Source: Isoetes taiwanensis (taxonomy: Eukaryota; Streptophyta; Lycopodiopsida; Isoetales; Isoetaceae). From it: a DNA stretch of 64,000 nucleotides. Shown piece after piece: positions 9,782 through 63,602 of the stretch (the stretch's first letter is position 1; each line of letters begins with the position of its first letter). Below the pieces are notes generated by a model that worked only from the letters and a program-made list of their open reading frames with translations, did no database searches and was not told the origin of the DNA. The stretch lies in contig JAJEKV010000062.1 of assembly GCA_021234155.1 (NCBI GenBank), positions 598,952 to 662,951 of the forward strand, written 5' to 3'. A program made the translations under genes and the position numbers.

Positions 9782-10882
9782 ATGAAGATTGTCACTTGGA
9801 ACTTAAGAGGAATTAAGGGCCCTCAAGAGGAAAAAGGGCTCTAATAGCTATCAAAGGAGCTCAAAGGCACATTATTCTTTTTTGAGGGGAACATAGTCGC
9901 CGACCTTTGAAGCCTCAAACTTGGGAAATTGGATCTTCCCCAATGGTGAATCCATTTGGTCCCCTGCAGATGGCACAAAAGGAGGCATTTGCATTGCTTG
10001 GAACGGGTATAGAATGGTGAACTCCTTCCTACACCCATCAGGTAGATGGCAGGTGGCATTCTTGATGATCGGGCAAGAGCAAGTAGGCATTATAAATGTC
10101 TATGCTTCTACCTCTCCTGAAGAAAGAGAAGAACAATGGAAAACTATGGCAAACTGGCTGCAAAGTCAAAATACTAGTAACTGGATCCTTAGTGGAGACT
10201 TTAATAATACCCCATCTTGGGAACAAAAAGCAGGAAAGAAGATCAACATGTCCAGAGGAGAGAGAGCTCAATGGGATAAATTGGCTCATAGCTTCATATA
10301 TCATGCTCCTTCTTCCTCTAATGCATATTCCTGGTGCAATAAGAGAAAAGGAAATGACAGAGTGTATTGTCTTTTAGACAGGTATTATACTAGCATTTCC
10401 ACATTGGATGGCTGGGATAATCTGATCATCAGTAATGATTGTAGTAACTCAATTTCAGATCATTACCCTCAGATCCTGGACACTGGTCTTCTTCCTCAAA
10501 ACAGGTGTGCTGACACTCCCTTCAAATTTAATGCCAGTTTTCTGAATAATAAGGTTTTTTGTGAGGAGTTCACCAGATTCTATAGGTCACTAGAGCATTT
10601 GAATGCAAGTGGCTCTATGAAGGAGTTTATATGCAGGAATAAGCAAATCAAAAATTGGGTGAAGCTGTGGGGCAAGGAATGGAACAGAAAAAAAAGGTTA
10701 GAAAAAATGGAGGTCTACTCGGAAATAAGAGATGTTAGGCAGAGCCTTTTTTTGGACAAAGCTAATGTGCAACTGCAACAGAGAGAGGAGTCCCTGGAAA
10801 GTAAAGTCAAGTTGATTGAAGAATATGAAGCTAAAAGTTTGGCCATAAAAAGCAGAAGTCTATATGTGAACCTGCATGGATG
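9782..10882 (+). pseudogene. LINE ORF2 N-terminus: AP-like endonuclease
   Basis: The start at 9782 reads MKIVTWNLRGIKGP, the classic opening of plant LINE ORF2. A frame change between about 9830 and 9925 removes the glutamate (LQET-type) motif. The long frame 9921-10883 then carries the rest: a GGICIAWN strand, VGIINVYAS, the SGDFNNTPSW motif with catalytic Asp and Asn, DRVYCLLDRYY, and the terminal SDHYP with catalytic Asp-His. The endonuclease nicks the target DNA to prime reverse transcription. Residues about 200-320 of the frame are Lys/Glu-rich, matching the linker to the polymerase. Confidence 0.92.
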
Positions 10883-12230
10883 ATTGCAGCTCAAAATTCT
10901 TCTTGGTACGCTAAAAGCGTAATTATGAACAATGGGATTGTCTCGATTCGAGATGACAATCAAAAAGAGTTCTTTAAACAAGAGGACATCCAAAAATTGT
11001 TCTACACTAAATACAAGGAGTTATTTACAGCCAAGGATATTGACAGTGCTAAAATGGATGAATTCTTTGAATACCTTGGCCCAAAAGATGATCATATTCA
11101 GGATGTACAGCTTCTGGCAGTTCCAATGGAAGCGGAGATTTTAAGCACATTAAGGAGTATGGCTCATGGGAAAAGCCCTGGTCCTGACGGTCTACCTCCT
11201 GAATTTTATGATCATTTCTGGGATGTAATGAACAAGGACATAGTTACATTTGTACAGGGTGCTTGGCAGGCTGAGAAATTACATCCAGCAATCAATGCAG
11301 GTCTAATTGCCCTCATCCCAAAGGTAGATATGCCTATCAATTTCTCGGATTGGAGGCCTATCTCATTAACAAATGTGACATATAAAGTTTTGGCTAAGAT
11401 CTTTGCCAATAGGATAAAAAAGATTCTTGAGAATAAGATCATCCCAGTTCAATGCAGTTTCTTCCAGGAGGTGCATCTTGGACAACTTCATTGGAGCTTA
11501 TGAAGGTTTACCTTTGGAATAAACTAACCAATCAAGGCTGCGGTACTCTTAAAATTGGATTTCAAAAGAGCCTATGACACCATTGACTGGAAATTTCTTT
11601 ACAAAGCCATGGCACCGGGTTTCTCGGATGGGGTGATTGGGAAAATAGTTGGCTTCAATGTAACGGTTGCTCAACAGATTTTGGTTAATGGCTCCCCCCT
11701 CCTCCTTTTTGAGTGCAAAAGGAGTGAGACAGGTGTCCTTTAGCCCCCTATCTCTTCTTAATAGTAGCGAAATGGTTACTAGATATATCATGAAGATGCA
11801 ACAAGATAAGAAGATTAGTTGCTTAAATCTTCCGGACACAAAAGATGCTTTTATCGGTAAAAGTATCGATACCTTTGTGTTCTTAAAAAGACAAGGGGGG
11901 CGTATTGAAATTTCCTCTCTGCAATGGAACTTTTTGGGTATGCTTCTGGGGTGGTCCTGAACAAGGAAAAGTGTGCCTTCATCTCTGACACCTTTGAGAA
12001 TCATATTGAAGGGATAAGTGTTTGTGGTCTCCAAAAAGCTACCAAATTGTTAGGTCTTCCATTAGCTCTCAACATGAGTCTACATGGCCTTTGGGAACCC
12101 ATTGTGACCAAGATAAAGAAAAACTTCAAATGTATCCTAAGTCTTTGTCCTTATTTGGGAGAATAGAGATAATCAATAGTGTTATGCACCGGCTCTCATG
12201 TGTACTTCTCTTCAGCAATAATTGAGACAG
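10880..12230 (+). pseudogene. LINE ORF2: non-LTR reverse transcriptase
   Basis: Continues the endonuclease after a frame change at about 10880. Recognisable blocks in order: HGKSPGPDGLPPEFY, GLIALIPKVD, WRPISLTNVTYKVLAKI, then after another frame change LDFKRAYDTIDWKFL with the first catalytic Asp. The second catalytic box, normally FADD, should lie near 11.86 kb. There the sequence reads GKSIDTFVFLK, so the double Asp is lost or frame-broken. SGVVLNKEKCAF and TKLLGLPLAL follow as expected downstream of that box. The enzyme would copy element RNA at the nicked target; this copy is dead. Confidence 0.92.
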
Positions 12231-16497: not shown

Positions 16498-16502
16498 GCA
16501 AG
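16498..16502. repeat. Left 5-bp target duplication (GCAAG) of the LTR element
   Basis: GCAAG precedes the 5' LTR and recurs at 34762-34766 directly after the 3' LTR. Five bases is the usual duplication size for LTR retrotransposons. The match supports pairing of the two LTRs as one insertion. Confidence 0.75.
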
Positions 16503-18073
16503 TGTGATGTTCGGACAAGATACGGTCCGGGGATGTATCGCGTACTACCTTCGTCATCGCGTGCCACGCCACCACCGACCGGCGTTAATGCATACAGAAG
16601 CGCGTAGCGGTGAGTAGCCCCTAGGGGGCAACTTGCAAGGTAGGTGCATTTATTATTAATGTGCACATTTACCAATGTGCACATTTATTTAGGTGCACAC
16701 CTTTCCATGTAGATACATTTATGCCACCTAGCCATTAAAGGCAAGTGGGCCATTCCCAATTATCCCACATGCTTAAGGGGATAATTGGAAACCCTAGCCC
16801 TAACTCCTTGTCTATTTAGGTAGGACAAAACCCTAACTTGCCATTTTGTCCATAGGGTTTTAGAGCTCATTTTTGGCTGCCCCAGAGCCAGCGCCATTTC
16901 CCGCTTCTGTCTAAAGTTTAATTGCACCATTAGTTTTCCTTTTGATTCGAAAGCAGGTGCCAGGATGGTCGAACTTCGAAAGTGAGGAGGGCGAGCCAAG
17001 GGATCAGGTATTTGGTCAATTTAATAGCTTAAACCGTCTTTCGGGCCATTGAGTGGTGGGTTTAGCCTATTAAATTGCCCATAGCAGCTATCTAGATCTC
17101 TAGATTGAGACTCTAACTAAAGAATCTAACCTCTATGGTTTAGATCTTAGTTCTTTAGTTCTTACGTGATGTATATGGATGATGTATCTGCTGAACTCCT
17201 TGTATTGGGAAGGGGGTAGAGACCCCAAGCCTAGTAGTTGATGCTCCTAGTTAGCCTCTCTAGCACAATTGTAGATTCTACACGTGCATAAGAACCACAC
17301 ACAGGTTGTGGGTGAAGGGGGCACTCTGCTAAGAAGGAGGTTCGTGTTGGGACTCTTGAACGATCCCTCGGGTGTGTAAGGCCTACCGGGATCATTGTGA
17401 CTAGGTCTAATGGCTTACCACCGAAAGGGTAAGGCATGGGTTCAACACCGCGGAAGTGGTGTTCACTTTCCAGTGGGTTTCAATAAAGGGCGGCGGCCCT
17501 CTAGTCACCTTTGAGTCAAGATGTAGACCTCTAGAGGGAGTGATCCCACCGCCCCATCGAACTGGGAGATGCAACCCGGGGATAGCCCCTTTGGCTATGC
17601 ATCCCGCGCTGGTCCAGGTCCCAACACTTTTTTCAGCCTACCGCACCAAAGTGTGCAATGTGGAGGGGCGGATGGAGGGACAACCCTATGCCATGTTCTT
17701 ATGCCGCCCAAAATCCATTGCCATGAATTTGCGCCCGTGAATGAACTCGAGACCCAAGTCCGGTCATTCCTTCGAATCGAGCCTTGGTAGGAACCCCTAT
17801 GTATGATGTCGATCATTGTCTATGCAGATGTTGATGCACCACCCTTGAGGTGGACATGTGGATTATGTTGTATAATCGACATGTATGTTTACTTCTCGCA
17901 GCCTAGGTAGGCCCCGGGAGACGGGTAAATGACCCTTCACTCTTCCTAATCGGGACCCAAAGACGGTCACAAATGATATGTGGAGGGGCCCTCAGACAGT
18001 ATGGAGCTGGTATGGGGGATGAACTCCTGTTTGTATATAGTGAATACACCGTATACGAGTAGGGGACGTCACA
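16503..18073 (+). repeat. 5' LTR (about 1.57 kb)
   Basis: Starts TGTGATGTTCGG and ends GACGTCACA, so the TG...CA ends are kept. It aligns along its whole length with 33222-34761. Shared landmarks include GGTGCACACCTTTCCATGTA, CCCTAGCCCTAACTCCTTGT and CCCTTTGGCTATGCATCC. The LTR should hold the promoter and polyadenylation site of the element. Confidence 0.88.
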
Positions 18074-18074
18074 G

Positions 18075-18086
18075 TGGTATCAAAGC
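18075..18086 (+). other. Primer-binding site for initiator tRNA-Met
   Basis: TGGTATCAAAGC starts one base after the LTR end. It matches the plant initiator tRNA-Met complement TGGTATCAGAGC at 11 of 12 positions. This is where minus-strand DNA synthesis is primed. Confidence 0.85.
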
Positions 18087-18277
18087 AATGTTCTTGGAGA
18101 CCAAGAGCAAAGCACTGACCATGCTCCTAGTAGTACTAACTTGATAGGATCCTTAAACCTCGAAAAATGGGAAAAAATTCTCGTTTTTTGTAGTATATGC
18201 TAAGCTAGTAAAAAGTTAAAAGTTAATGAGAACATAAAAGATTAAAATCGCTGAGCCAAACCTTCAAAAAGTAGGAT

Positions 18278-18350
18278 GGTCTCCACACGCCACTCCCAAA
18301 GATGTGATAATGAGAATCTCATTTTCGGGCTGGGCGCAACGTGTGAGACA
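18278..18350. repeat. Long hairpin, copy 1
   Basis: The right arm TTTTCGGGCTGGGCGCAACG plus TGTGAGAC is the same as in copies 3 and 4. The left arm (GGTCTCCACACGCCACTCCC) is degenerate but still pairs in part. It lies between the PBS and the first ORF. Confidence 0.65.
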
Positions 18351-18495
18351 TTGAGCCCAAAACACCCTAAAAAGTCATGAATTTCAGAAAAAATAACTTG
18401 GTAATTCGAATTTTAAGCTAGGAATTAGCTAGAATTAGTATGTTACATTCTTAAAGATATGCTTAGAAAGTATAAATTTTAGCATTAGAATCCAC

Positions 18496-18561
18496 CATGT
18501 CTCATTATCGGCCAGACCAAAATGAAACTTTCATTTTCACCAAGCAATGTGTGAGACCATG
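18496..18561. repeat. Long hairpin, copy 2
   Basis: CATGTCTCATTATCGG ... GAAACTTTC ... AATGTGTGAGACCATG: both arms are recognisable around an AAAATGAAACTTTCATTTTC centre. It lies about 218 bp after copy 1. Confidence 0.7.
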
Positions 18562-18651
18562 AGGTTAGAAATGCTTAAATTTAGGGTGTTTTAGGTGTTT
18601 CGTGATCACCCAAAAGGCTAGTTTGAAATTTGACCTAAAATGGCCTGGGTT

Positions 18652-18659
18652 TATAAATA
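18652..18659 (+). promoter_or_regulatory. TATA box upstream of the H3-fold ORF
   Basis: TATAAATA within TTTATAAATAG, about 105 bp before the ATG at 18764, so a start site near 18685 would leave a leader of about 80 bp. It lies inside the element, outside the LTR, suggesting ORF1 may have its own promoter. Confidence 0.5.
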
Positions 18660-18763
18660 GATGTAGACCCCCTCATTTGTACATGCCTTCCTTAGAAAAT
18701 CGCCCCTTTAAGCCAAGGCAATTTTTATGGCCATTATCGGATTGATTTGAACCGCTGGAACAC

Positions 18764-20058
18764 ATGGCTGACGAAGCAGATCGCCAGAAGCTCGCCCAGC
18801 GACCGACCAGCCTGTGATCCCTACCGATACGTAGAATGCTCCAGAGCCTTTTCGTGCAGGGCCGCCTTCATCAAGCCAGGGAGAATTGTCCCAGGAACAC
18901 CCCAAAGAACAACAACAACCAAGAAGGGGTGACATGAGGTGGAAGAGGATGCCCACCCAACGCCGAACAGAGGCCCAAGGCTAAGCAAGCACCGACGCTA
19001 TGAAGAAAATCCTTGAAGAAGTGGCAAGGAAGGAGGCAGAAGAACGGAGGGAGCCGACTCCCCAGCCAACCATCGAGGAGCAACTCGAAGCTTGGGTTCG
19101 TTTGAAGGAGGCTGAGGAGCGAGAAGAACAGAGGGAGCCGAGGCTCGACCCAGCTGAGGAAGAAGACCTCGCGGCATGGATCAAAAAGCATGAAGCCAAA
19201 GAGCGCCGCCGAGAAAAGAAGAGGAAGAGAAAACAGGAGGAGCCCAACACAGCTGAGGAGCCGAAGAAGAAGAAGAAGGCGAACGTGAAGGGCAAGAAGG
19301 TGGGCAAAAGAAGAGTCGTGCAGGTTAAGCGGGTAAAGGGTTTAGTCATTAACGAACCCTCACCGACCAGACCAGCCCTCCCCCGAATCGACGACTGGCA
19401 TGAAGATTACGCCCCCAACACGTAAGGGGCAAGCTCTTCCAAACCCCCCGCTTGTCGAAAGCGTAGTACCCGACAAGGAGCAGCCCAACCCGGCAGCCCG
19501 AAAGCAGCCGGCAGATAAGCCCCCACCTTACCCCACGCGGGATAGGGTCAAAGCACGCTGCCAAAGAGTATGCACGGATAGACCCCGCCAAGGTTCATCA
19601 AGAAGCTAATGGAGCACAACGCCTTCATGGTGAAATGGGAGGCGTACAACACGTATTACCAGGAGCACAGAGTGAGGGCTATCGAAGGTGGAGTGCCCCC
19701 CAAACAGACTCTGAAGCCGCCACCACCGAAGCCCAAGCCTCCTAGAGCACCAGGGAAGAAGAGGACCGGCAGGAAGGAGACGGAGAGGAGAGCCCTGAAG
19801 GAGATCAGGCACTTCCGGTGAAGCTAATGGTTTTGATCCCCGGCACCGTTTCACCGCTTGGTCCGAGAGGTCATCCAGGAGTATAACACGGATATGAGGG
19901 TGACCGACGAGATGTTGCTGGGTCTGCAAGAGGCAACGGAGCAAAAACTGGTGCAGCATTTTGAAGATTCGACAGCCTGCACAGTTCACGCGAAGAGGGT
20001 CACACTCATGAGGCAAGACATGCATCTTGCTAGCCACATCAAGGGAGAGCGCCCTTAA
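18764..20058 (+). pseudogene. ORF1: charged protein ending in a histone H3 fold (frame-broken)
   Basis: Starts ATGGCTGACGAAGCA at 18764 and spans about 430 codons, with frame breaks near 18.82-19.0, 19.42-19.6 and 19.82-19.85 kb. 19000-19425 is a Glu/Lys/Arg-rich, coiled-coil-like segment with KKKKKANVKGKK. 19609-19821 is Pro/Lys-rich, then enters the H3 alpha-N region (RRALKEIRHFR). 19849-20058 carries the core: PFHRLVREV, TDMR, GLQEATE, LVQHFEDSTAC, HAKRVTLM and a GERP terminus. These match canonical H3 (PFQRLVREI, TDLR, ALQEASE, LVGLFEDTNLC, HAKRVTIM, GERA). Loop 1 has ordinary-H3 length, without the CENP-A insertion. The Cys and His matching H3 C110 and H113 are kept. The K4/K9/K27 tail is not recognisable. 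H3 pairs with H4 in nucleosomes; the role here is unknown. ORF1 sits where gag is expected. Confidence 0.82.
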
Positions 20059-20202
20059 GACTTTGTAAATAATAGCAAAATTTTATTAATATAAACAGTT
20101 TTTTTGGCTAGGTAATATGTGTAATCTTGCTTAGCTAGGTCAAGATATTGAATTCTGGCTTTTGTTTTAGTTAAAATTGACACTTTGAGCAAATTTGAGA
20201 CG

Positions 20203-20274
20203 ATGTCTCACACGTCGCGCCAGGACAGAAAATGAACTTTTCATTTTCGGGCTGGGCGCAACGTGTGAGACCAT
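20203..20274. repeat. Long hairpin, copy 3 (near perfect)
   Basis: Arms GTCTCACACGTCGCGCC and GGGCGCAACGTGTGAGAC enclose GAAAATGAA / TTCATTTTC around a 3-nt loop. This gives about a 30-bp stem with a few mismatches and a bulge. It lies about 145 bp after the ORF1 stop. Confidence 0.85.
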
Positions 20275-20402
20275 GCCCCAAAAATGCCCAAAACTGCTCC
20301 AAATTGACCAAATAAGGGGTCAATTCTGCCTAACTCGACAAGTCCAGTAGAATTAGACCCTTACATCAGCCAAATTAGATAAGTTTAACCCATTTAGAGC
20401 CA

Positions 20403-20472
20403 ATGTCTCACACGTCGCGCCAGGGCAGAAAATGAACTTTTCATTATCGGTCTGGGCGCAACGTGTGAGACC
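20403..20472. repeat. Long hairpin, copy 4
   Basis: Almost identical to copy 3, 200 bp downstream. It differs mainly at GGGCAGAAAATG and TTCATTATCGGTC. Copies 3 and 4 lie before ORF2 as copies 1 and 2 lie before ORF1. Confidence 0.85.
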
Positions 20473-20756
20473 TCTCAGCATTTTCTCCATCATGCCATAT
20501 CCAAATGACCTCCAATTTGATGCAATAGGTTCCCTAGCTAATTTTAGCATGCTCAAACCCTAAAAGTAGTCTTCAAATCCTCATTTTAGCCTCCTAATAG
20601 GTCGTAATTACCCAACCCCAGTAAAATTCTAGGTCATCCAAAAATTCCCCATTTCTCACTTAGCACCCCACAAGTCTGCTCTTGACTGTTTAGGCGATTT
20701 TTAAGCTCCCTGAGGCGCTTCTGCATCTGTTTGTTAGTCTCACCTTCATTAGATCA

Positions 20757-22226
20757 ATGGCCACTGCTGACTTCAGGCGATGGTACAATGCCAGTGCCCA
20801 TGATGCCGAGGCTGATGTCAACGACATCTTCCGAGTCTTTAGGAAAGAGATAGATGTCCAAGCAACTCTGCATGCAACCCCAGCATATAGGCAAGTCTTA
20901 GCCGAGTTCCAAGCTAGGGTAGGAGCCTCTCTAGTGCAGCTACCCCCTTGCACAGGCTATTTTGTTCCCCATCCATCCCTTCAAGCAGCCCTGGGCGATG
21001 TTCCGAACATTGCCAAATACTTGACCAACAAGGCACAGAGGCTGCCAGATTACATGGTTCTGACAGTTGACAGGACCAAGTATTTCTCCTACACCGCCTT
21101 TTTAGCCATTTTCCTTTCCCCACCGCGGCTTGAAAACCCAATGGGGAACTCTATTCCTCCCATGGAGGTGGACCCCATAGCAGCCTCAATAGCGGAGCAG
21201 ATGCTTTTGCAAGCAGCAAAGAAGAGCAGAAGGAAGAGCTGAGGAAGAGGAATCCCGGACGAGGAAGAGTACACTTGAGCTCGACTTAGAGGAGGAATGG
21301 CTAGCGTGAGGGAGGAGCTAGCCAACCACGAGCCGGAGCCGGTATGGACCCCCCGTGAGTCCCCCCCACTTGGCTAGGCATCAAGTCTAGCCCCATCATC
21401 ATCGTAGGGGGAGTACCACGACATCGAATCTCCCAATGCGAGGGAGAGGGAGCTCGACTTGATGAGTTGCTGCACCAACTAAGCAAGAAGAACAGACTTG
21501 GACGACTTCATCGTCAGGGGAGTCTCAAACTTCCCGTTTCAAGTCAGAAGCCACACCTCCATGGGAATGGGAGTCTTCCATATCCGCCCTACTGAACATA
21601 AGACGGGTTATGGAGGCCCCAGAATTGCCATCTGAAGAAGGCCATTCAGGAATGGATGGGGATCAGGCAAGACCACAACATCTTGATGCCGGAGTCGTCG
21701 ACACCACCTCGCACAAGAGGGTGAGCAGGAATCGACATCGAGCAGTCGACAATTGCGGGGAAAGGTAGAGGTCAATGGACACGCCGGCATAGAGAGCCGG
21801 AGGCCGGAAGCAAGTGGGGAATCATCTGCGACACACAACGTGTCATCAGGTACCACCCTCCCCCTCGGATGGGAGAGAATAGCTGGTGGTACCGCAAATT
21901 CAGCCCCCGGTGAAGAAGGAGTGTTCATGCTCATTGCACTCTCAGGCTTTGGCAGGCATGCTCGAATAGCTGCAAACGTCGACTATGTTGTCTTAGTCAA
22001 GAGAGCGATGGCACTTGACCTCTTTGACTTCGCCGTGGCCTACCGACGGCAGGGAAGATTGGCAGTGACCGTGGCTTACACCTCCGACTGCAGGGTAGAA
22101 GAATTGGTGACAGCCTTGCAGGGCGGGTCATCAACCAATGTCCTTAGGAACTTGGGACGCTCGGTGGGAATGGCCCAAGTTAAGAAGTTCCTCGAGGACA
22201 ACCCATCTTACCGGCGATTTCAATAA
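20757..22226 (+). pseudogene. ORF2: unrecognised protein, frame-broken
   Basis: Starts ATGGCCACTGCTGAC at 20757. The first open part (20757-21242, 161 residues) begins MATADFRRWYNASAHDAEAD, is rich in Ala, Leu and Pro, and ends in a basic KKSRRKS. After it come an acidic stretch (DEEEYT, LDLEEEW) in shifted frames and about 500 bp of broken frames. The last open part (21753-22226, 157 residues) has a globular-looking C-terminus (LFDFAVAYRRQGRLAVTVAY, VKKFLEDNPSYRRF). I recognise no domain. The leader resembles that of ORF1: hairpin pair, then GGC(G/A)ATTTTTA shortly before the ATG. Position after the H3-like ORF suggests a second element-specific protein. It could instead be two genes. Confidence 0.5.
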
Positions 22227-22324
22227 TAGTTAGACTCTTGATCCCGGGAGAATGACAGCTAAACGTCAGAAAAATCGTCAGAGGGTCTAAAATAGTTTGT
22301 CAAATGCGTATTTCACTATTAATA

Positions 22325-22634
22325 TGACGCTTAATCTGACTAACAAGCTGACGTTTAGAGTTGACGAAAATCCTGACTAATAAACTGACTAATAAGCATC
22401 TGACGAATTACCTGACATTTAGACTAACGTTTAGCTTGACTAATTAGTTGTCTAATAATCTGACTAATGAGGTGACGAGTAGTTAGACGAACCATTTCTG
22501 ACGATTTTGCTGACTAAAAGTCTGACTTGTAGCCTGACTATCCGTCTGTCCAAATGTTTGACTAAATATCTGACTAATTAGATGACTTACAAGTTGACGA
22601 TTACACTGATTAATTTTGTGACTATTATGCTGAC
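22325..22634 (+). repeat. 12-bp-period array of TGAC units
   Basis: About 26 units: TGAC starts at 22325, 22337, 22349, 22362, 22374, 22386, 22401, 22413 and onward to 22631. Of the 25 steps, 22 are exactly 12 bp; the slips are 13, 15 and 14. Twenty-one units have exact TGAC and five have one change (TAAC, TGTC twice, AGAC, TGAT). The commonest unit core is CTGACTAAT or CTGACG. Inverted GTCA occurs at 22265, 22277 and 22299 on the left and 22650 on the right. Read as codons it gives [Leu/Val/Met]-[Thr/Ser]-x-x repeats, but TAG codons and slips argue against current coding. Confidence 0.92.
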
Positions 22635-23493
22635 TATCTTCCTATATTCGTCAGAATAATGGTCATGCATAATATCTATTGTAGTTGCTGCTATTCCTTA
22701 ATATAATGATGTAAATGATATATTAAGCATCTAGACTTTCTCATTTATTGAATAACATCTCTATTTAATTGACTCCAAATGTTTTGTAATTTGAGGAGAT
22801 CATGTTTCACCAACTCCATTGTAATGGGAAAATAGGAGTTGGTAGTAAATTCTGTGTTTGTTTAGGTGTTGTTTACTACAATTTCTTTCTCCTCACACAT
22901 ACCTTCCAACTTAAAAGCAATCAAGAATACATATCACACGAGATCCACTTTTAGACATTTAACAGCAACCAAATACTTTAGCCCGTCAACTTGCCCGCTT
23001 GAGGAACTTTTTTTAGAAAATTTCACACCTATAATTTATAATGATGCACTTCTTGCTTAACAACATATCAACTTCAAATGCTTAGCAAAGTAAGTACCAA
23101 TGTCTATGATGGTTCAAAGATCATCAAGCACTTGCAATGTGTTTTTATTATAAGCTATTTTGATAAGATCCCAATGAAAGTGTAGTAATGCTAAATACTT
23201 TTTCTAGCAATATATAATACTCATATAACTATAGTACCATGTAAGACCCTTTTTAAACCCATTGATGTTGCTAAGGATATGGTTGGAGCATTTGTTGCTG
23301 CCTAGTGGCGTGACGTTAAAATACTATCTATCTATCTATCTATTATGGCTTATTTGATGTAAAATGGCATGTTTGATGTTAACCCGACATATAAGATGAC
23401 TGCCATTAAAACGAATGGAGAATTCAAAAAGCATAGCCTAATGTTGGTAGTCCCATCTTTGAGGATTCAATTTACAAGCATTTATATATACAA

Positions 23494-23537
23494 AAGAAAT
23501 TATCGCGCGCCAAGGTAAGGCCGCGAAAGTTTCTCTT
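23494..23537. repeat. Dispersed GC-rich palindrome, copy 1
   Basis: AAGAAATTATCGCG on the left mirrors CGCGAAAGTTTCTCTT on the right, around GCCAAGG. The same outer sequences and following CCCAACTC occur at 30127-30180, where the centre is longer and perfectly palindromic. Confidence 0.6.
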
Positions 23538-24364
23538 CCCCAACTCGTTTATACATGCTAGAACATGATTAGGGTTTCATTTCCATTAGGTTTTCGTTCA
23601 GGAGGGACGACAGAGTCTGGTGGAGCGGAAAACCGATATGGCGCATGATCAGAGAAGATAACATGTTTTACATAGTAATCTAATGAAATGCACTATCAAA
23701 TTTTTGAATGCAGCAAAAGACAGGATTAGGATATGGCATTTTTAATCATATGTAGAGGCAAAGCCGCAGAGGCCGCTCAATACTGCAGACAAGGCTACCA
23801 TTGTAAAAGTTGTTTTAATTTTAGAAAAAATATTATTGTGCTTGTTTCTAACATAAATGCTAGAAAGTGGTACATGTATAATGTTGCCGAATATTCTAGC
23901 CAAGTGTGTTGTTTTGTCATTCCAAAATGTATTCGATGCGTTTGAACTATAAAAATTGCTTTTGAATTCATCCAGGCAAGTGCGTTGGCTTGTTATCTCA
24001 AAATGCATAAAGTTATTTGTAGGGATTTGAACCCCAGTCTAGATGCCCAGAAACTGTTTCCTTACCATATAGACTACTCTTTATTTGACATATGAAATCT
24101 TAGCCATTACTTAAAATCAGAATCAAGAAAGTTGGTCGATAACAACAGCCCCAGTAATAACCCAATATCTTGTGCTTATGATCGCAATTGGGGAAGGGAT
24201 CCTTTGCGGCTGACCTAAAGAACTTAAGATTACGGGCATTTCTCTCAAATAAGTGGTCCTGGCTTAGAACTTGTAAAGGCATAGATGATTCAAAGATCAA
24301 GAGATCCATTCCTGGCCCTAGCCTCATGTAGCAAAGGTGCCTCCAAAAGCTTGGATTCTCCCGC

Positions 24365-24442
24365 CAATAACATTGATAGAGGAAGATACCCGATGATGCT
24401 ATTCAATAACATTGATAGAAGAAGATATCGACGATGATATTC
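24365..24442 (+). repeat. 39-bp direct repeat, two units
   Basis: CAATAACATTGATAGAGGAA and CAATAACATTGATAGAAGAA start 39 bp apart, each followed by GATA and a CGATGATG-like sequence. Confidence 0.75.
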
Positions 24443-25509
24443 AAAGACAAAGACAATCGGGGTTTTATTTAGCCTAATGCTTACTTTGCATATATATTTT
24501 CTAAATTTCATTTGCAAACTGTGGAAGTAGTATCATTCTTGTACCGAGGATTATCACTTATAAATATTCTTGTTCTTGGTCTAGCATACGAAATTGTTAG
24601 TGTGATCCCTTTGTTTTTATCGCTTAGTCTTTTGTAGCGTAATGAAATGGACATTATTCTCTTGTTGGGTCACCAAATTCATTATTGTAGCATGTTAAGA
24701 CCCCGCAGATTCTTGATATCATATCACTGGGTTGCCATTCGGTTGCGTGGCGGGGTTATATGCCGCATACTATGTTATCAAGATAATTACTCAATTCTAT
24801 TATGCCATGCACCGACAATTTTTAGACAGAGCCTCATAATTCTACTATGTTTTGATCTCTTGGGCATTATGGTCTTTAAAATGCAGCTTCATTTTATCTT
24901 GCATCTTTATTCTATCCTACTGCGTGATTTTCGATAGCTTTTTGGCCAGCATATTCATGAGTTCTATCGCTTGGTTTACATGAGTTCCAATTGGCTTATG
25001 CTGATTGCATGGGTTAATCCCTTTATGATGTTTTCCTTATTATTCAAGCATAGCCATATTATTTAATTATTTGTCATTTTTCTTTTTTTGCTTTGGCTTA
25101 GATCTTGGAGCCTAGTAATCATTACTTTTATTCTAAAATTTGTTCCTTATCTTTTTCGATCAATGGGGTTATAGCAAAGAATGGAAGGTAATGATCGAAT
25201 GGAGAATTTTTGCTTGTTCTAAGAAAGTTGGAAGGTCTATTCTTCATTCCCTTGCAATTTTAGACCTCAAAGGAGTGGGGCATCATCAGCAGAAAATACA
25301 TGCATAAGCTTTTTAAAATGTATTTTTGTTTAGTTTATGCATAACAATTGGGGTCAAAAAAAAAGCAGTTGTAGGGATGAAGAAAACATGGTATGAATTC
25401 TAAAAAAGAAGTTGCACTAGTGTTTCTTCGCTTTTTTTCTTATTTTCCTTTCACATTTCGTCAGAGCATTGTTGCCTTTCTGCAAAGATCTCTAAATTAT
25501 GACCGGTAG

Positions 25510-26700
25510 TTGATTGGAATGCGTAAAAGAGTGAGCCACAAGGACAACAGGTTTGTTGGGTGCTTTAATTATTTTATGTTATTCTTACGATTTGTGCAAC
25601 TTGATTTGGTGAAAATGTGGATGGACCTTGAGCAGATAAAGGCTCTCCCGGCCGCCTGGCCAGAGTGGGTTTGGAGGGCAACGCCTTGCCACAAGCATCA
25701 GCTCGAGGAAAACAGAAAGGACAAGAGGAGGAGCAAGAGAAGGAGGTCCTCCAGAATCGGGACCGACTCAAGCTCGGTCGGACCGACGGGAGGAAGAGGG
25801 AAGAGCTGTGCCCGTGACCGTAGAGATGGAAGGCGAGGGACACCACGATGGACGGGCGACAAAGGGACACAAGAGCCTCGACTACCGTAAGAAGGTAGAC
25901 TCGCATTGGGAAATGTTTGAAGGCCGTGAAGCTCGAGCAATTCTCGTGCAAGAAACGGCGTCGCATGGAGGCAGAGGCTTATTCGATGAGATGAGTGAAT
26001 ATGGCAACGCTTTTATGGTATGAAGGACAAGGATAAAGGCAGGGTGGCAACAGCCAACCGGAAGGAGCAAAGACGATTTGGTGAAAGGGTTATGCCAAGG
26101 CCTATGGCTTAAGGAGGATGCGTGGTTGAAGTTTGCTAACGCTTTCAAGCCGCCATTATGTCCCAAGAGAGCACAAGTCCAGCATGATGCAGCAGTTCTA
26201 CAGGTTGCAACAGGAAAACAAATCACCCAGAAATATCTGAGGAATTCATGAGGCTAAGGCTTTATGTGCCAAAGTTGGGTGAAAAGCATGCGTGGAGAGC
26301 TACATTGAGGGGTGAATGAGGAGATCCGCGAAGCTTTGTAAGGGCAATAAACCCTAAGATGATCGGAAGCATGAGTCCAAGGCAATAAGCTTGCAAGGGA
26401 CGGGACCTCAGAATAGCGGGCAGAGGCAACAGTATTACCAGGGTAAAGGCAAGGCAACAGGGAGTTATAGCCCTAAAGCAACCAGCCCAGGTCCAGCTAG
26501 AGCCCCATATGGTGGCAATCAGGGAAAGCAGCAGGAGAAGAAGCAGGTGTCCTTCAAAGACAAGCAGGAGGGGTCAAACTACTCCAAAGCAGTGCGATCC
26601 TTTTTACAGGCGATGCCCAAGGAAAAGAGGCAGGAGGTATAGAAAAAGTTTTGTTTTCAAAACCAGCCAGCACACAGGACAGCGAACTGCCCCTATGTCA
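25510..26700 (+). pseudogene. Ty3/gypsy gag remnant
   Basis: Frame-broken capsid/nucleocapsid region. A piece near 25615 reads MDLEQIKALPAAWPEW and continues into a Lys/Arg-rich stretch. Near 26240-26370, EFMRLRLYVPKLGEKH and FVRAINPKM resemble the conserved end of chromovirus gag. 26391-26642 is a Gln/Gly/Pro/Lys-rich linker. It ends in CFQNQPAHRTANCP at about 26650, a CCHC zinc knuckle whose second Cys is replaced by Asn and whose spacing is off by one. Gag would form the particle that packages element RNA. The start is uncertain. Confidence 0.65.
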
Positions 26701-29160
26701 TGAGTGCAGCGCTAGCGGAGTTGGGAGATTGGGACACTCTGTCTGACGACGACAGCGAGGCAGCCCACGACTACATTCAGGGCGAGTGTCATATCTTTGC
26801 TGCAATAGATACAGAACAAGCAGAGAACCAGTATAAGGCAATTTCCACAGTAGGGAAGGCCAAGGCCAAGTCCTTCATAGTCCTGATAGACTCGGGAGGT
26901 AGCCATAACTTTGCATCCCCCAGAATGGTTAAGATGTTGAAGTTGAAACCATCGGGTCGGGCCGGAGGTCCGCTGGTCGAAAGCAAGGGAGCAAGAAGCG
27001 CGCATGCCAGTGCAAGAGAATTAACTTCGACATCGACTCTGCCGTGGATTAATATCCGCATGGGGCGTAAGTAATGGGTATTGGCAAGCATGACTTGATC
27101 ATAGGAATGGAGTATCTTGGACCGTATGGGCACTCACGAAGTTCACGATAATGCCTTCGGCTTATCGAATGCCCCAAAGAACGCTCATGAGACTCATGAA
27201 CGACATCTCTGGGAGTTCTTAGACACCTTTGTGATAGTATTCTTTGATGACATTTTGGTGTATAGCGGCCTTTGAAGAGCAACGCATAACACACTTAAGG
27301 AGAGGCCGAGAAGTTGAAGAAGCACCGATTTACGCCAAGTTGTCGAAATGCCGCAAGAATCCGGAGAAGGTGGAATACCTAGGTCATATGATCTCAGCGA
27401 AGGAATCTCGACGGATCCCGCAAAGATCGAAGGCTCATTCAAGGGCCGCAACCGAAGAATGCATGAGGGTCGGTTTTTTTGGCCTAGTAGGGTACTACAG
27501 AAGTTCGTGGAAGAACTTTGCTAAGATAGCGGCAGAGCATTGGCACAAGAAAGTCCAAGCCGGGTTTGAATTGTTGAAGGAAGCTCTGACGACCGCCTGT
27601 CTTGACCTTTGCCGTAATTCTGCAGAGAAAGATAAGCTTGTAGCCACAGATGCGAGTAAGATAGCTACAGGTGCAGTGCTCATGCAAGAAGAGCGTATGG
27701 TAGCGTATGATTCCAGGAAGATAAACGACGCCGAACGCGCCACCGGTTTATGATCAAGAATTGCTTGGCGGTTGTTGGGCATTAAGAATTTGGAGGCACT
27801 ATCTCTTGGGAAGAAAGTTCCAATTGATACTGCACCATCGTAGCCCCCAAGATGTATTCACGCAACCATACCTTAACCTGAGGCGTAGAAGGTGGATGGA
27901 GTTCCTTTGAAGAGTATGACTTTGATATAGTCTACAAGCCGTGGAAATGTGGTAGCGGATGCTTTCAAGGCATCCCCGACAACTAGAGTGCATTGCAATG
28001 CAATTTCAACGCCTCCGGCGACTTTGGTAAGAAAATTGAAGAGTCCTTGCCAATGGACGTGAACTTCAAGGAAGTATGGGCAAGCTTATGCAGGGAAGCA
28101 AGAACAGATAAGGAGAGAGAAACCTTCAAAAATTTTAAGAAGGAAGGTAATCTCTTATACCATAAGAACAAGTTGTGCGTGCGAATCATCGGGTGTGAGG
28201 AAGTTGATTCTCCACGACACCCACAACAGCCAAATAGGCCATGCAGATTTATGAAGACATATTTCAAAGTCTTGCAGCCTATTATTGGCCAGAATGAAGA
28301 AGTGTAGCTCGCTACATCAAGGAATGTCAGCTATGTCGCCAGACGAAGGCGCAGCAGCTTCAATTCGTGGGCATTAGAGCCATTAGCGGTGCCAAACGCT
28401 AAGTGGGAGGTCATCGGCATGGACTTCATCACGTGGTTTCCAAGGGCGACGAAGAGGGAAGGATGTCTTGATGGTAGTGGCGACAAGTTGTCGGAAGATG
28501 GCACATTTTGTGCCTTGTAGGACCACAGACACCGCTATGGATACTGGCCAAGCTCTTCACCAAAGAGATCTTAGGGGCTTCATGGCATGCCAAGGGAGAT
28601 TATCTCCGCCAGGGATCCGAAATTCATGAGTGCCTTTTGGCAAGACCTCTTTGCGACAATTCAAGGGGGCTATCTATGAGCACAACATACCATCCTCGAC
28701 GCCCGGATGGCCAAACGGAGCGGACCAACAGATTTTGGAGGGACATGCTGCGGAACTACGTCTGGAACAAGCAAAGGTATGTGGGAAGAATTTATTCACT
28801 TGGTGGAGTTTGCCTACAATAGCACCCAAGCAAGAGTCATCCCAAATGTCGCCATTTTATGATCAATTACGACTATCAATGCCTCTCGGACATTTGGCAC
28901 AACCGTGTGTCAAAAGTAGAGGTTTTGCGCCCAGATGTTGTCCGGCATTTGCGGCTGCGTGGAAGAAGTTCGAGGGTATCTGGCAGCAAGAGTCGACAAA
29001 AAGAGCATCGCCGACAAGCATCGCCGCGACCCGGGAGAGTTCCAAGTTGGAGATGATGTATGGCTCAAGATCAAGGTAAAAGCGGTGAAGCTCGCGATCG
29101 ATAATTGTAAGAAGCTTGCTCAAGGTGGGCTGGACGATCAGTCAAGAGAATAGGTAATCA
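26700..29160 (+). pseudogene. Ty3/gypsy pol: protease, RT, RNase H, integrase (decayed)
   Basis: Protease: VLIDSGGSHNFAS with catalytic DSG at about 26889. A GKHDLIIGMEYLG block at 27080-27120 is joined within about 35 bp to the second half of RT (GLSNAP, VIVFFDDILVYS at about 27.23-27.27 kb, where FFDD replaces YVDD), so much of RT is missing. AKLSKCRKNPEKVEYLGHMI and GLVGYYRS follow. RNase H shows LVATDASKIATGAVLMQE at about 27640. Integrase keeps the second half of its zinc finger (ECQLCRQTKAQQ, about 28.32 kb), the EVIGMDFIT Asp at about 28.42 kb and the catalytic Glu in PDGQTERTNRFWRDML at about 28.70 kb. Many frameshifts; not functional. Domain order fixes it as Ty3/gypsy. Confidence 0.88.
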
Positions 29161-29314
29161 ATCCCATGATTGGACCTACCAAAGACACCTAAAAGATTCA
29201 TAAGGTCTTCCACGCGTGAGTTTTGTTGAAGAAGCATACTCCAAATCCGCACGAAATCTTGGACACTCCAACGTTGTTGGAAATGATGGAGGAGCATTTG
29301 GAAATAGTTCGTAA

Positions 29315-29515
29315 TTGATTCTTGATAAAGCCTTCAAGAAAACAAGGAGATTAGAGTTTCTCCAATATTTGGTCAAGTGGAAGCACTTGGTGGAAGACGC
29401 GACGTGGGTACTTAAGAAAGATCTAGTAAAGCGGTCCACAATTTATGGAGCAATGGGACGGCAAGGTCATCTCAAGAAATCGGCTCAGTATGTCGATTTG
29501 TGTAGATTAATTCTA
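29315..29515 (+). pseudogene. Chromodomain at the end of gypsy pol
   Basis: KTRRLEFLQYLVKWKHLVED followed by ATWVLKKDL matches the YLVKWKG...ATWEP core of chromodomains fused to chromovirus integrases. In this clade the chromodomain reads histone marks and guides insertion into heterochromatin. The pairing with an H3-fold ORF in the same LTR-bounded unit is notable. Confidence 0.8.
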
Positions 29516-30999
29516 TGTGTAGTTAAGATTAATCACGATGCGACCTATGGTAGGTATGGGTTACATCGCGTTGTTAAGATGATGAGACCACCGCGGTGAT
29601 CTCTAGGGCGTGGTGTAATGTCAATGTAGGCATGACCGCATTTCCGCTGGATGAGTGGAAGGTAGATTAGAAAAGTCTACTGCTCCAAGTAGAAGACTTC
29701 ACCGAGAGAAAGGAGGTCATTGAGGAATGCATTGATAAAAAAGCACCTCTAGCCCCATATATGCTTTGATAGAGGAATCGCCTTCACGCCCATATAATGG
29801 GAAGGACCTATCCTCCACGCTGGGCAACTAAAGGTGTAGGCATGAGCGGCATATAGGCATATAGGCGCTGTCTCCACGGCCACGATGGAAGGTTCACCCT
29901 CTTCCTACGCCGGGAGATTAGCCATGCATTCATGTAGATAGGTGGGGTGGTCACCATATAACCAAAATTTTATTAATAATTTAAATGGTAATAACGTAGT
30001 GTCGATCTGCAGGCCAATAGAGCTCTCCGGAGGGCAAGGAGGTCGAGCTACGAAGACTTGCAACACAAATTTTGTTGGAATGTGTTGCAAGGTATGAAGA
30101 GTACCTCGAACGTTAATTACATATACAAGAAATTTATCGCGGCGGCCTTGGCGGCCAAGGCCGCCGCGAACATTTCTCTTACCCAACTCACAACAAAGTA
30201 GATTTTTCTATTAGTCAAAAAGGACCTCAGCTATGGGCTTGTAAAATGGGCCTTAAACCCCATCATGGATTGATAGCATTCATTAACAGAACTTTTTTAC
30301 TTGCAAAAAGGAAGTGGTAGCCATCTCTACAAATAACTGCTTGTTATCTCATTTCTAGCTTGCAAGGGTCTAGCTTATCTTTGTATCATCTCTGTATTGA
30401 CAACTTAAACATTGTTGGAAGAACATTTTAAGGTAACATAGTTACACCCTTTATCTAAGCAGTGACAACAATCTTTGGAGACATGATGGCCCATGTTTCA
30501 ATATCAGACTTTGAATATGTAGAAACAATATGAGTTCAAAGCATGGTAAGCCCTTACTTATTTTCTAATTTGGCTAAAGCTCAAACATTAAATGCTCTCA
30601 AAGTCCTTGTGATTTTTAACTTCATTTTCGAAGTGGGCTTCATTGGCCTTGGCCCCCTATAGAATGACGAAGGGTATAATTTAGTCCTAGCAATATATTT
30701 CCAAGTATGTTTATTGCAATGTAACAGCATAAAGAAAGATGGCATTTTTGAACATAAACAGAAGTATCTCTCAGCAAAAAACCTGCGACACAAAACATAT
30801 AACAGGCCTGACCACAATCCAAAATTGTCAATTATACCCCTGCACAAAAGAAAAAAAAATCCTTTTAAAATTTTATCAGGCATGCCAATGGGCAAAACCT
30901 TATTGTAATGAAGCGTTGACAATGCTATCCTACCAAAATTTCGATGATAACCTCACTTTTATTTACATTTCAATGCAGATTTCTGCAAGGTGGCCTCTT
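29516..30999. other. Non-coding region after gypsy pol
   Basis: Begins with possible gypsy trailer; TGTAATGTCAATG at about 29616 looks like a gypsy LTR start, but no partner copy exists in the window. Holds a perfect GC-rich palindrome at 30138-30168. From about 30.2 kb it is AT-rich and runs into the 3' flank of the antisense DUF829-like gene. Confidence 0.35.
30127..30180. repeat. Dispersed GC-rich palindrome, copy 2
   Basis: A 31-nt core at 30138-30168 is a perfect inverted repeat: 14-bp arms (CGCGGCGGCCTTGG and its complement) around a CGG loop. AAGAAATTTAT on the left and ATTTCTCTT on the right extend the symmetry to about 54 bp. Copy 1 is at 23494-23537. Confidence 0.75.
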
Positions 31000-32573
31000 T
31001 CATGCTTGTTGCATGCAGTCTTTGATAAAATTGTTCAGATGCGAGCCATAAATGTCAGGAAAGGTTCTGAAATGATCCACATGTGGGGATATCTCGAGAT
31101 TGCAGGATTTAACAAGACGCCCTGCTTTTTTCTGCTCATCGATGAAGGATTCTACTGATTTTGCTGGAATTACCCTATCAGCATTATTATATATATATAA
31201 TTGTGGGCAATCTTAATACATACTTAAGCCTTCAATTAAAAAATATATATATATAATTGTGGGCAAGAGGGCTGTTGATTTGAAAGAACTCCAAAGACCT
31301 CTGTTAGTCTCCTGTACAAAGAAGTTGTTAGTGGCTTCATGATAAAGAGAGAAAAATAATTTATGACTACATACTTTTTGATGGCTGGAATCTGCAAGAA
31401 GAATGAGAAAAGCTTCTCAAGCATTGTAAGCAAAGCTGCTTCTGCGATATGAGGCTGTACTTCCATTTTCTCTCCCTTTGTTTTATTTATGGCTTCAAAT
31501 TGTTTAGTAGCAATGCTCCTTTTTCCCAAAAAGGCTGCTGAAAACCCGATGCCCACACCTGGAGCATTTTAAGAGCCTTATTATTCTAGAAAGAATCAAA
31601 ATAGGTCATTTGATAATTGTAACATACTTTTCTTCTGCTAAATCCTAAGAATAAAAACCAGACGTGTTGATATGGACATATAGGACACTTGAAACACACG
31701 AAATCCTGAATATATGGGCACTCTGGTTGCAGTAGTAAGAATCAAGCCTCAGAACTCAATGGACTTTGTTCAGGATGAAAAAAACAAACACAATGAGTAA
31801 AACCTTTACTTCAAATATCAACACGAAAAAGCCGACTAATACTTGACAAAGCATGCAAAGAGGAATACATATCAGTTAAGCAAATAATACAACACAATAG
31901 CAAGGTAAAAACATACCTGGGGATCTGGATCTGCTACAGGTGCAGAATCAAACACACACCTGTTATTCTATTTAATAATTTCTCGTCTTTCCGCAACAAC
32001 CTTTCCAGAACAACGCCATATCTGTAAAGTGAAAACTTAGTGATCAACTAGTGGCAGCTTATGGAGTTTACTAAGTACAGCATACTTACGTGAGCCAACC
32101 TGTATTGCCGAAGGTATGAAAGAAAAGATGCTTCTCTTTGCCATCACCTTCTTCCTTTAACCACGTTGCAAGATGATGAGCCAGTTGATCAATTTGTTCC
32201 TCTGTCTTGCCAACCTTGACACACAAGAGGTCGCTCATAGGAAGCACAAAAGTAACAGCATTGATTCCTCTGGCATTGTACCAATCTGCATATTTCTTGA
32301 GATGCTTCTGTTTGGATCCAAGCCACTCTAACAAGACCACTGTTGCTACCTCTTTGCCATGACCTTTTTCATCAATTTGTGCTTGTTTTACATCAAAAAC
32401 ACCACTTTGAAACGGAAATCCTTGCGCATAAAATTTGCAATCTTTGTAATCTTTGCGCAGCTTAAACGGCACAAATCAGCGGCCCCTTTTCTGCCTCTGT
32501 TAAATCTTTCCAGCTTAGCATCAAACAAATTAACTCTGTGCACTCTTGATACAGCATAAACGGAGGAAATCAT
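31000..32573 (-). pseudogene. TMEM53/DUF829-like gene, four exons, with frame breaks
   Basis: Minus-strand gene. Exon 1 runs from about 32573 to 32090, exon 2 32021-31917, exon 3 31558-31375, exon 4 31311-31000 (TGA). Junctions have GT donors (GTAAGT, GTATGT, GTATGT) and AG acceptors. Exon 1 gives ATVVLLEWLGSKQKHLKKYA, GINAVTFVLP and FHTFGNTGWLT; exon 2 YGVVLERL and DSAPVADPDPQ; exon 3 GFSAAFLGKRSIATK and EAALLTMLEKLFSFFLQIPA; exon 4 RLTEVFGVLSNQQPSCPQLY, DRVIPAKSVESFIDEQKKAG and SPHVDHFR. This is the plant DUF829/TMEM53 family, alpha/beta-hydrolase-like; function poorly known. Breaks: N-terminal frame shift near 32470, one missing base each in exons 2 and 3, and a 55-bp duplication insert in exon 4. 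The HTFSNTG serine reads Gly. A pseudogene, or a gene with consensus errors. Confidence 0.87.
31189..31265. repeat. 22-bp direct repeat flanking a 55-bp insertion in exon 4
   Basis: ATATATATATAATTGTGGGC followed by AA occurs ending at 31210 and again at 31265. The copy between them plus about 33 unique bases breaks the frame between QLYIY and ADRVIP of the DUF829-like protein. Confidence 0.8.
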
Positions 32574-33207
32574 AAGTTTTGAAACCTACAATATTTACTG
32601 CAAAAGGAGCGCCAAATTCCCGATTTGTTTGCTCATGAGAAGCGGCACAGCTGCAGAAATAAGACAGAACAAAATCTGAAGAAAAGGCGAACCGTAAATG
32701 CAAATTGAAGCATCCTACTTCAGCCACAGAGCCCAAAAATATAATCCGCGCCAATCCAACTCCAGCGCCAGTGCAAGCCCTGCCACTAAATTCGAACCCT
32801 GGGTTAGCCTTCGAAGCATTATCCGGAGGACCCTTTTTTTTCTCCTTTTTTTTTATCGCTCACGAGCCATTCATGAAGCCGGAACCCAACCGTTACGGCG
32901 TTGCTGGATTCGACACGTGCTCAAATGTCACGTTGATGTATACTTATATATGTCTTGATGAAATATTAAAATTTTGATAAACTAAATTGTCGTGATAAGT
33001 AAGTTATTGAGTAACTTGTTGTAATGATGTTACGAATTGATAAGTTATTTCGTAAGATAATAGCGTAATAATGATTTAAAAATATTACCTTGAGGTAATC
33101 TTAATAAATGTGTAAGTATTATAGTAGTATATTGTATGCATCAGGTTGATTGCAGGTTAGGAAGATTCCAAGGTGGAGATCCACGATGTCGGGACAAAGA
33201 TCATTTC

Positions 33208-33221
33208 AAGGTGGGGAGAAA
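33208..33221 (+). other. Polypurine tract
   Basis: AAGGTGGGGAGAAA, 14 purines except one T, directly before the 3' LTR. It primes plus-strand synthesis. The preceding GACAAAGATCATTTCAA resembles the end of gypsy elements. Confidence 0.8.
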
Positions 33222-34761
33222 TCATTGACGTTCCAAAGACAAAAGATACGGCCATGGGATCGATAGACGATCGTCATCTGCGCGCGCATTACGCCACCCG
33301 ACCGACGGTAATGACGCCGCGATAGCCAGTGAGTAGCCCTAAGGGCAACTTGCAAGGTAGGTGCATTTATTATTAATGTGCACATTTACCAATGTGTACA
33401 TTTATTTAGGTGCACACCTTTCCATGTAGATACATTTATGCCACCTAGCCATTAAAGGCAAGTGGGCCATTCCCAATTGCTTAAGGGGATAATTGGAAAC
33501 CCTAGCCCTAACTCCTTGTCTATTTAGGTAGGAGGAAACCCTAACTTGCCATTTTCGTCCATAGGGTTTTAGAGCTCTGTTTTGGCTGCCCCAGGAGCCA
33601 AAACCGCCTCCGAGCTTCTGTCTAAACGAATTGCACCATTAGTTTTCCTTGATTGAGAGTTCTCAGCAGGATGGTCGAACTTCGAAAGGTGAGGAGCGAG
33701 CCAAGGATCAGTATTTGGTCAATTTAATAGCTTAAACCATCTTTCACCATTGAGTCAAGAGGGTTTAGCCTATTAAATTGCCCATAGCAGCCTATCTAGA
33801 TTCTAGATACGGACTCTAACTAAAAACCTAACTCTATGATTAGATCTAGTTCTTTAGTTCTTCTGTGATGTATATGGATGATGTATCTCTGTGAACTCCT
33901 TGTATTGGGAAGGGGGGTAGAGACCCCAAGCCTAGTAGTTGATGCTCCTAGTTAGCCTCTCTAGCACACTGTAGATTCGGCCTGTGCATAAGAACCACAC
34001 CTAGTTGTGGGGTGAAGGGGCCGACCGGCTAAGAAGAAGGTTCGGTGTTCGACTCTTGAACGATCCCTCCGGTGTGTAAGGCCTACGGGGGATCATTGTG
34101 ACTAGGTCTAATGGCTTACCACCGAGTGCGGGTAAGGCATGGGTTCGACACCGGGAAGTGGTGTTCACTTTCCAAATTGAGTTTCAATAAGGGCAAAGGC
34201 CCTCTAGTCACCTTGAGTCAAGATGTAGACCGGAGGGAATGATCCCACCGCCCCATCGAACCGGGGAGATGCAACCCAGGGATAGCCCCTTTGGCTATGC
34301 ATCCGGTGGGCTACCAGGTCCCAACACTTTTCACCTACCGCAGAAGTGTGCATGTGAGGGGCGGATGGAGTGGACAACCCTATGCCATGTTCTTATGCCG
34401 CCAAATCCATTGCCATGAATTAAATGCCCAATGAACTGGAGACCTGCCGCCGCCATTCCTTCGAAGTGAGCCTGGGTAGGAACCCTATGTATGATGTCAT
34501 CATTGTCTATGCAGATGTTGATGCACCACCCTTCGAGGTGGACATGTGATTATGTTGTATACTGACATGTATGTTTACGCTTCCGCAGCTAGGTAGGCCT
34601 TGAGGGAGACGGGGTAAAATGACCCCTTCACTCTTCCCACTGGGGACCCAGTACGGTCACAGTGATATGTGGAGGGCCCTGTATCAGTATGGAGCTGGTA
34701 TGGGGGATGAACTCCTGTTTGTATATGGTGAGTATACCGTATACGAGTAGGGGACTTCACA
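33222..34761 (+). repeat. 3' LTR (about 1.54 kb)
   Basis: Aligns with 16503-18073 and ends GACTTCACA. The start reads TCATTGACGTTCC instead of TGTGATGTTCGG, so the 5' TG is altered. Differences from the 5' LTR are mainly clustered short indels and replacements in GC-rich spots. Confidence 0.88.
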
Positions 34762-34766
34762 GCAAG
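34762..34766. repeat. Right 5-bp target duplication (GCAAG)
   Basis: Identical to 16498-16502 and directly next to the 3' LTR end. Confidence 0.75.
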
Positions 34767-61909: not shown

Positions 61910-62123
61910 GGGGTATGGCATCTGGTTTGAGTAGCAAAAATCCTTGTATCATAATTTTAAAAGGCAATTTGACCCCTACATTGTATAGATATTCTTTGGA
62001 ACCCCCAAAACCCCCAAACCCCAAAGGTGCTCGACCGGCGATTTTTGAGTCCCCAAATTGGATTCAGCACCCTTTTGCGGCTCGAGAACCCTTCAAACTT
62101 TAGGAAGTCATATTACATAGAAG

Positions 62124-63600: not shown

Positions 63601-63602
63601 AG

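Follow-up and report, generated by a model that had tools for sequence, protein, structure and literature searches.

The window analysed here, a stretch of 64,000 nucleotides from the Isoetes taiwanensis genome, contains an LTR retrotransposon at positions 16503-34761 whose parts are listed in Table 1. Its LTRs (1571 bases on the 5′ side and about 1538 bases on the 3′ side) are 86.0% identical, with a K2P distance of 0.165, and a perfect 5-bp target duplication flanks the two. The primer binding site at 18075 is one which we take to be of the initiator-Met-tRNA type. Gag, protease, reverse transcriptase, RNase H and integrase are all recognizable, and the order reverse transcriptase, RNase H, integrase, with a chromodomain C-terminal to the integrase, is that of the chromoviruses (Ty3 lineage). 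An assignment to the hAT transposons was rejected, given LTRs, a 5-bp duplication and pol genes instead of terminal inverted repeats, an 8-bp duplication and a transposase. The stretch between ORF2 and gag that is much shorter in a related copy is, for that reason, probably a later insertion.

Table 1. Parts of the retrotransposon, in positions of the window.
Feature	Position	Strand	Remarks
5′ target-site duplication GCAAG	16498..16502	.	
5′ LTR	16503..18073	+	
Primer binding site TGGTATCAAAGC	18075..18086	+	
ORF1, decayed; H3 variant with a large insert separating tail from core	18764..20058	+	stops and a frameshift
H3 tail-tip remnant	18764..18795	+	MARTKQTAR.. in open relatives
H3 core, αN to α3	19729..20058	+	
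ORF2 remnant	20757..22226	+	two pieces (20757-21242, 21753-22226); no Pfam match
Stretch shortened in a related copy, where the same flanks enclose about 290 bases	22249..25614	.	
Gag and protease region, decayed	25863..27065	+	
Reverse transcriptase fragment	27121..27434	+	
RNase H, integrase and chromodomain region, decayed	27472..29431	+	
Polypurine-like tract	33210..33221	+	just 5′ of the 3′ LTR
3′ LTR	33224..34761	+	start approximate
3′ target-site duplication GCAAG	34762..34766	.	

Elsewhere in the window, another repeat occurs as two direct copies about 55.96 kb apart (2878-3838 and 58833-59797), 91-100% identical in three pieces, and the frames at 645-1328 and 9921-11503 resemble, on visual inspection, the RNase H end of a copia element and the endonuclease/RT of a LINE. 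G+C content stands at 57.5% in 62001-64000 and at 35-50% in every other 2-kb segment. An Rfam scan of the entire window returned no family at the gathering score.

The preliminary description had placed a histone H3 fold at the C-terminus of ORF1 within an LTR-bounded element and proposed a search against the Pfam Histone profile (PF00125). Run on the translated region 19606-20058 with stops read as X, this search gave a match with an E value of 4.4e-20 over profile positions 13-121 of 122, and together with the LTRs, the primer site and the target duplication it bears the proposal out. The H3 motifs lie where they had been reported, on the + strand, with αN, α1, α2 and α3 at canonical spacing. 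In related copies the core of L009 matches the same profile at E 3e-42, and the core of another relative aligns without gaps to solved H3 chains at E 2e-25. A chance match was rejected on the Pfam E value and on the 150 scored relatives described below. Other parts of the description needed amending. The window's ORF1 is no intact frame, since in-frame stops and one frameshift interrupt this copy. Nor does it take the place of gag, as a separate gag starts at 25863 with ORF2 intervening. The long extension that had been read in place of a normal tail proves to be an insert, the ATG at 18764 aligning with the MARTKQTAR.. start of open relatives.

All counts given here come from a single Isoetes taiwanensis genome (1,658,258,908 bases in 1,110 contigs). 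A search with the H3 stretch of the window scored 150 of 9,178 candidates, and each of the 150, one of them the window itself, reaches 81% identity or more across no fewer than 109 of 113 residues, so that the window family, hereafter family W, does have other copies as far as these are found by H3. Open frames of this family reach 507 aa, and some matches contain stops. Twelve loci were picked for long frames to form the W ORF1 set, of which 11 passed a motif filter and L030 did not. A copy on contig C1099, covered from its 5′ side to the gag start and short of the 3′ LTR, has an LTR and leader 84% identical to those of the window, followed by ORF1, ORF2 and the start of gag, and one further stretch of 5.3 kb repeats the order ORF2-gag.

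A search of the genome with the Pfam Histone profile scored 150 of 8,704 candidates. The top 15 rows cover profile positions 2-122 of 122, and of eight loci fetched from the top rows seven are canonical H3 of 136 residues, L008 giving no match in the frames read. From the lower rows, across the score range and with long frames preferred, 18 loci were taken that form a second group of elements. Chosen by H3, all 18 have the H3 core, 17 show downstream similarity to ORF2 and 17 to gag-protease-RT, and a primer-site motif lies upstream in 12. Two of these elements could be followed over their full length of about 13.2 kb, their LTRs being 91.6% and 89.6% identical, and together with the window this makes LTR pairs in three of the three elements with both ends covered. 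A chromodomain-type integrase finds support in both pol ends scanned, where a Chromo match lies at the integrase end (L027, E 2.2e-9; L012, E 6.3e-8); two of the three cage aromatics of HP1 are missing from the second-group chromodomain. With 150 family W matches, the C1099 copy repeating the element order and these 18 loci, the possibility that a lone host H3 pseudogene had inserted only here fails.

Second-group ORF1 begins with a domain of about 200 residues unlike anything in W, continues with a charged linker and ends in an H3 core that shares 82-89% identity with host H3 (15 ORFs); its sequence thus shows a different N-terminal domain preceding a nearly normal H3 core. Searches with the N-terminal part, first as one sequence and then as a 10-row alignment, covered the scored candidates of a set of 5.8 billion proteins and returned none of them at E 1e-3; in Pfam no match was convincing (one of 10 members reached E 0.063), and solved structures gave none. 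With full-length ORF1 as the query, the best 120 of 3,719 protein matches carry H3 names or a histone domain, and the two of them examined contain repeated H3 stretches. Between the second group and the window, pol is 32-39% identical in the aligned stretches, and ORF2 of a W relative resembles that of the second group at 24% over 123 aa (hhalign E 0.002, probability only 13%). Since pol is so diverged and ORF2 similarity so weak, the association with H3 either is old or arose more than once. ORF2 itself is a conserved orphan between ORF1 and gag, seen in the window and at L013:4975-6420 and L042:8737-9435; the second-group ORF2 has no match in Pfam or in solved structures.

A near-perfect hairpin of 65 nt stands twice just 3′ of the window's ORF1 (20206-20270 and 20406-20470; fold z-scores −7.7 and −8.5), with a weaker copy on the 5′ side (18270-18350; −2.8). 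Of 62 loci, 14 have it on one or the other side of ORF1 (L010, L015, L028, L029, L030, L032, L033, L035, L036, L039, L040, L041, L042 and L049), and in L010/L028 it stands just outside the measured LTRs. In its inner stem seven of nine pairs have changes on both sides, with 95% of cells pairing (20 of 21 copies). The hairpin could serve the element as an RNA signal, or could itself be a tiny inverted-repeat element.

Eight of the 11 W frames begin with MART, six of them as MARTKQTAR, one with Q5E and one with K4E. Position 9 of these eight is K in five and V in three, and position 10 is P in seven and T in one. An insert rich in lysine stretches then separates residue 9 from the αN helix by 299-368 residues; ordinary H3 has about 37 there. 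By its sequence W ORF1 thus consists of an H3 tail tip, a charged insert of large size and, at the C-terminus, a complete H3 core.

The tail tip extends beyond family W. The DNA pattern for MARTKQTAR occurs at 1,888 sites in the genome (904 + 984, host H3 genes included), against 0 + 0 for the reversed-pattern control. About every fifth of the first 100 listed sites, on low-numbered contigs, was sampled; one of these 20 sites is a host H3 gene by position and was left out, and the 19 fetched are conditioned on an intact tail tip and were not chosen by their core. An H3 core follows within 1.6 kb of the tail tip in 15 of the 19, the exceptions being L045, L048, L053 and L054. Position 9 is K at 10 sites, V at three, I at three, T at two and M at one, S10 is found at none, and K9 is retained in nine of the 15 sites with a core. 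The peptides that follow the tail tip fall into several unlike groups at these 19 sites, so the tip is common to several families; among the tail-bearing types W is the only one traced to LTRs and pol, the others having been read for 1.6 kb. All 12 second-group ORFs with a readable start lack the tip, so it is not required everywhere. One second-group ORF1 (L026:3465 on) starts with MARTKGTKS, a partial H3 tail.

The dN/dS comparison across copies that the preliminary description had proposed gives for the W core a median of 0.096 at a pS of about 0.41 (11 ORFs) and for the second-group core a median pN/pS of 0.115 (15 ORFs), in sets whose selection by H3 score or by length of frame is biased towards conserved cores. 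For the N-terminal domain of 11 of those second-group ORFs the median pN/pS is 0.54. When second-group cores are compared with two host H3 genes, synonymous sites are saturated in all 30 comparisons and dN is 0.10-0.16. Residues 1-8 of the W tail have a pN of 0.040 and a pS of 0.662 in the eight frames starting with MART, whose first residues are fixed by the selection of frames. Loci chosen by their tail gave weaker ratios against one W core (pN/pS 0.12-0.56 at pS 0.47-0.92, 14 loci), and stops in the aligned part of eight of these 14 mark decayed copies among them. All copies read were chosen by H3 or by tail.

Since core and tail have changed far more at synonymous sites than in protein sequence, the ORF1 protein is, on this pattern of substitutions, kept by selection and not carried by passenger drift. 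We hold it very improbable that an H3 gene was simply picked up and copied along without function, as with the fungal hAT transposons: fungal transposable elements can amplify H3 without proven use, as described in the accessible parts of two reports (PMC3538342, PMC6710886), and many H3-bearing copies, the window's included, are broken, yet open frames longer than 400 aa persist among them, and core and tail are conserved despite saturated synonymous change between families and against host H3.

What the protein could do depends in part on the anatomy of its core, compared here through lists of contact residues from nucleosome work. The H3-H3′ bundle equals that of host H3 in 150 of 150 second-group cells and in 87 of 110 W cells (79%). 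DNA-contact residues are kept at 89% in family A and at 93% in families B and C of the second group, and at 36% in W. With so few of these contacts, W may bind H4 without forming ordinary nucleosomes. At the chaperone patch (residues 87-90) the host H3 forms read SAVL or TAVL, family A FAIL, FAVL or FALL, families B and C FAIL or HAIL, and W EMLL.

This anatomy bears on the rival reading with the most weight, namely that the H3 core serves the particle or the pre-integration complex (import with H4, compaction of cDNA, tethering to chromatin) and not a stable nucleosome. Consistent with such a role are the position of the ORF between the end of the 5′ LTR and gag-pol in the copies read, the lysine stretches of the insert, a conserved block directly before the W core (pN/pS 0.21) and the loss in W of most DNA contacts with retention of most of the H3-H3′ bundle. 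However, ORF1 is in the copies listed a frame separate from that of gag, and the second group keeps 89-93% of the DNA contacts, beyond the needs of H4 binding. We regard this role as unlikely, if worth serious consideration.

In a further reading the W core would descend from the centromeric histone CENH3, or imitate it, and would target the element to the chromatin of centromeres. At 41 positions that distinguish host H3 from Arabidopsis CENH3, 11 W copies match CENH3 at 11-13, and one family-A and one family-B ORF at only 2 and 1. Yet the same W copies match H3 at 12-15 of these positions and neither at 14-17, their tail tip is of the H3 type, and the CENH3-type insertion in loop 1 is absent from W, which aligns gap-free to H3 and has a loop 1 two residues shorter than that of Arabidopsis CENH3. 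Solved structures contain no match to this CENH3 at 1e-30. Along nine long contigs, 77 matches show no departure from even placement (KS p 0.15), a weak test as the places of the centromeres are not mapped. In a protein tree (28 rows, Isoetes taiwanensis genome only) W stands apart with full support and family A is grouped (100/97), and families B and C are not resolved from host H3; a tree with host H3 variants had been proposed in the preliminary description. A centromere-type histone seems to us improbable, and the resemblance of W to CENH3 may be taken as a lead.

We rather favour the reading in which ORF1, as an accessory gene of the elements, encodes an H3 variant that works in chromatin as a partner of host H4 and perhaps confers resistance to silencing through H3K9, and think it probable though well short of certain. 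The protein would enter the nucleus, its core would pair with host H4, the H3-H4 chaperones would handle it, and it would be deposited in nucleosomes or in an H3-H4-like complex. More speculatively, chromatin with the tail-bearing form might resist H3K9 methylation, given that the K9-S10 site is altered and K4 kept, and the likely benefit might be that the element escapes silencing; the insert might act as a tether for other element proteins. Retention of K9 in 10 of 19 tail sites, about half, weakens the idea of escape; its support would have to come from the missing S10 and from the types in which position 9 is V, I, T or M. A bolder version, in which many families of a retrotransposon radiation encode a K4-keeping, K9-S10-altered H3 of their own and have their chromatin packaged in nucleosomes that escape H3K9 marking, the core of one branch having moved toward the centromeric type, is offered as a tentative suggestion that we would not expect to hold in full.

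An H3 kept by selection rather than a dead capture suggests that the elements act directly on host chromatin. They may be viewed as a natural experiment on the parts of H3, with tail tip and core kept and the K9-S10 site changed, and they make the contest between transposons and chromatin silencing directly testable. They also carry a warning for annotation, as mobile elements can inflate H3 gene counts in Isoetes.

A literature search for histone-bearing retroelements, with most subscription journals and bioRxiv preprints outside its scope, found none. The word 'histone' is absent from the main texts of the genome papers of I. taiwanensis (PMC8566536) and I. sinensis, and from the accessible portions of a review that treats additional ORFs of plant LTR elements (PMC7264820) and of a giant-transposon review (PMC6431247). 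Chromoviruses share with the present elements an integrase with a C-terminal chromodomain, and the accessible part of the paper on them (PMC3350952) describes no H3 ORF upstream of gag. The preliminary description knew of no LTR family with an H3 domain; this stands for retroelements, where none was found, but fungal hAT DNA transposons provide a precedent. The present elements are to our knowledge the first retroelements with a core histone, the capture of H3 by transposable elements being already known in fungi.

Among known systems, the Gypsy elements of Phalaenopsis with an AlkB-type demethylase (PMC9289625) are likewise large elements with a fixed, host-like extra ORF thought relevant to host surveillance, although that extra domain is an RNA demethylase; the 15 extra Gypsy domains found across 121 angiosperm genomes include no histone among those named in the accessible text of the same report. 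Histones of mobile agents are further known from bracoviruses, whose H4 (CvBV-H4 / CpBV-H4) joins host nucleosomes and alters expression via its N-terminal tail (PMC9145170, PMC5423620). As far as the accessible parts of these sources go, that histone is H4 and not H3, acts in the parasitised moth and has a function proven experimentally.

The single viral H3s of xenomavirus, Dishui Lake phycodnavirus, sylvanvirus and others (PMC9145170) are, in the part of the report available, likewise H3 without other histones, with cores 73-87% identical to host H3, extended tails in three of six, and SAIL or TAIL at residues 87-90 in three, where the second group has FAIL, FAVL, FALL or HAIL. Unlike the present elements they belong to DNA viruses, and their tails are lengthened by 35-68 residues instead of being split from the core by an insert of about 300. 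The main text of that report contains none of 'retrotranspos', 'retrovir' or 'reverse transcri'.

A close parallel is found in Dothideomycete fungi, where hAT DNA transposons transduplicated H3 (H3L of Pyrenophora tritici-repentis, and Pseudocercospora fijiensis and its kin; PMC3538342, PMC6710886). According to the accessible parts of these reports, H3 coding sequence lies there too within a transposable element and was amplified to tens or hundreds of copies, with insertions in the N-terminal tail of all 26 Pyrenophora H3L. These are, however, Class II elements, whose Pyrenophora copies are recent and near identical and whose Mycosphaerellaceae copies are inactivated, whereas the Isoetes elements are LTR retrotransposons of diverged families in which core and tail are under selection.
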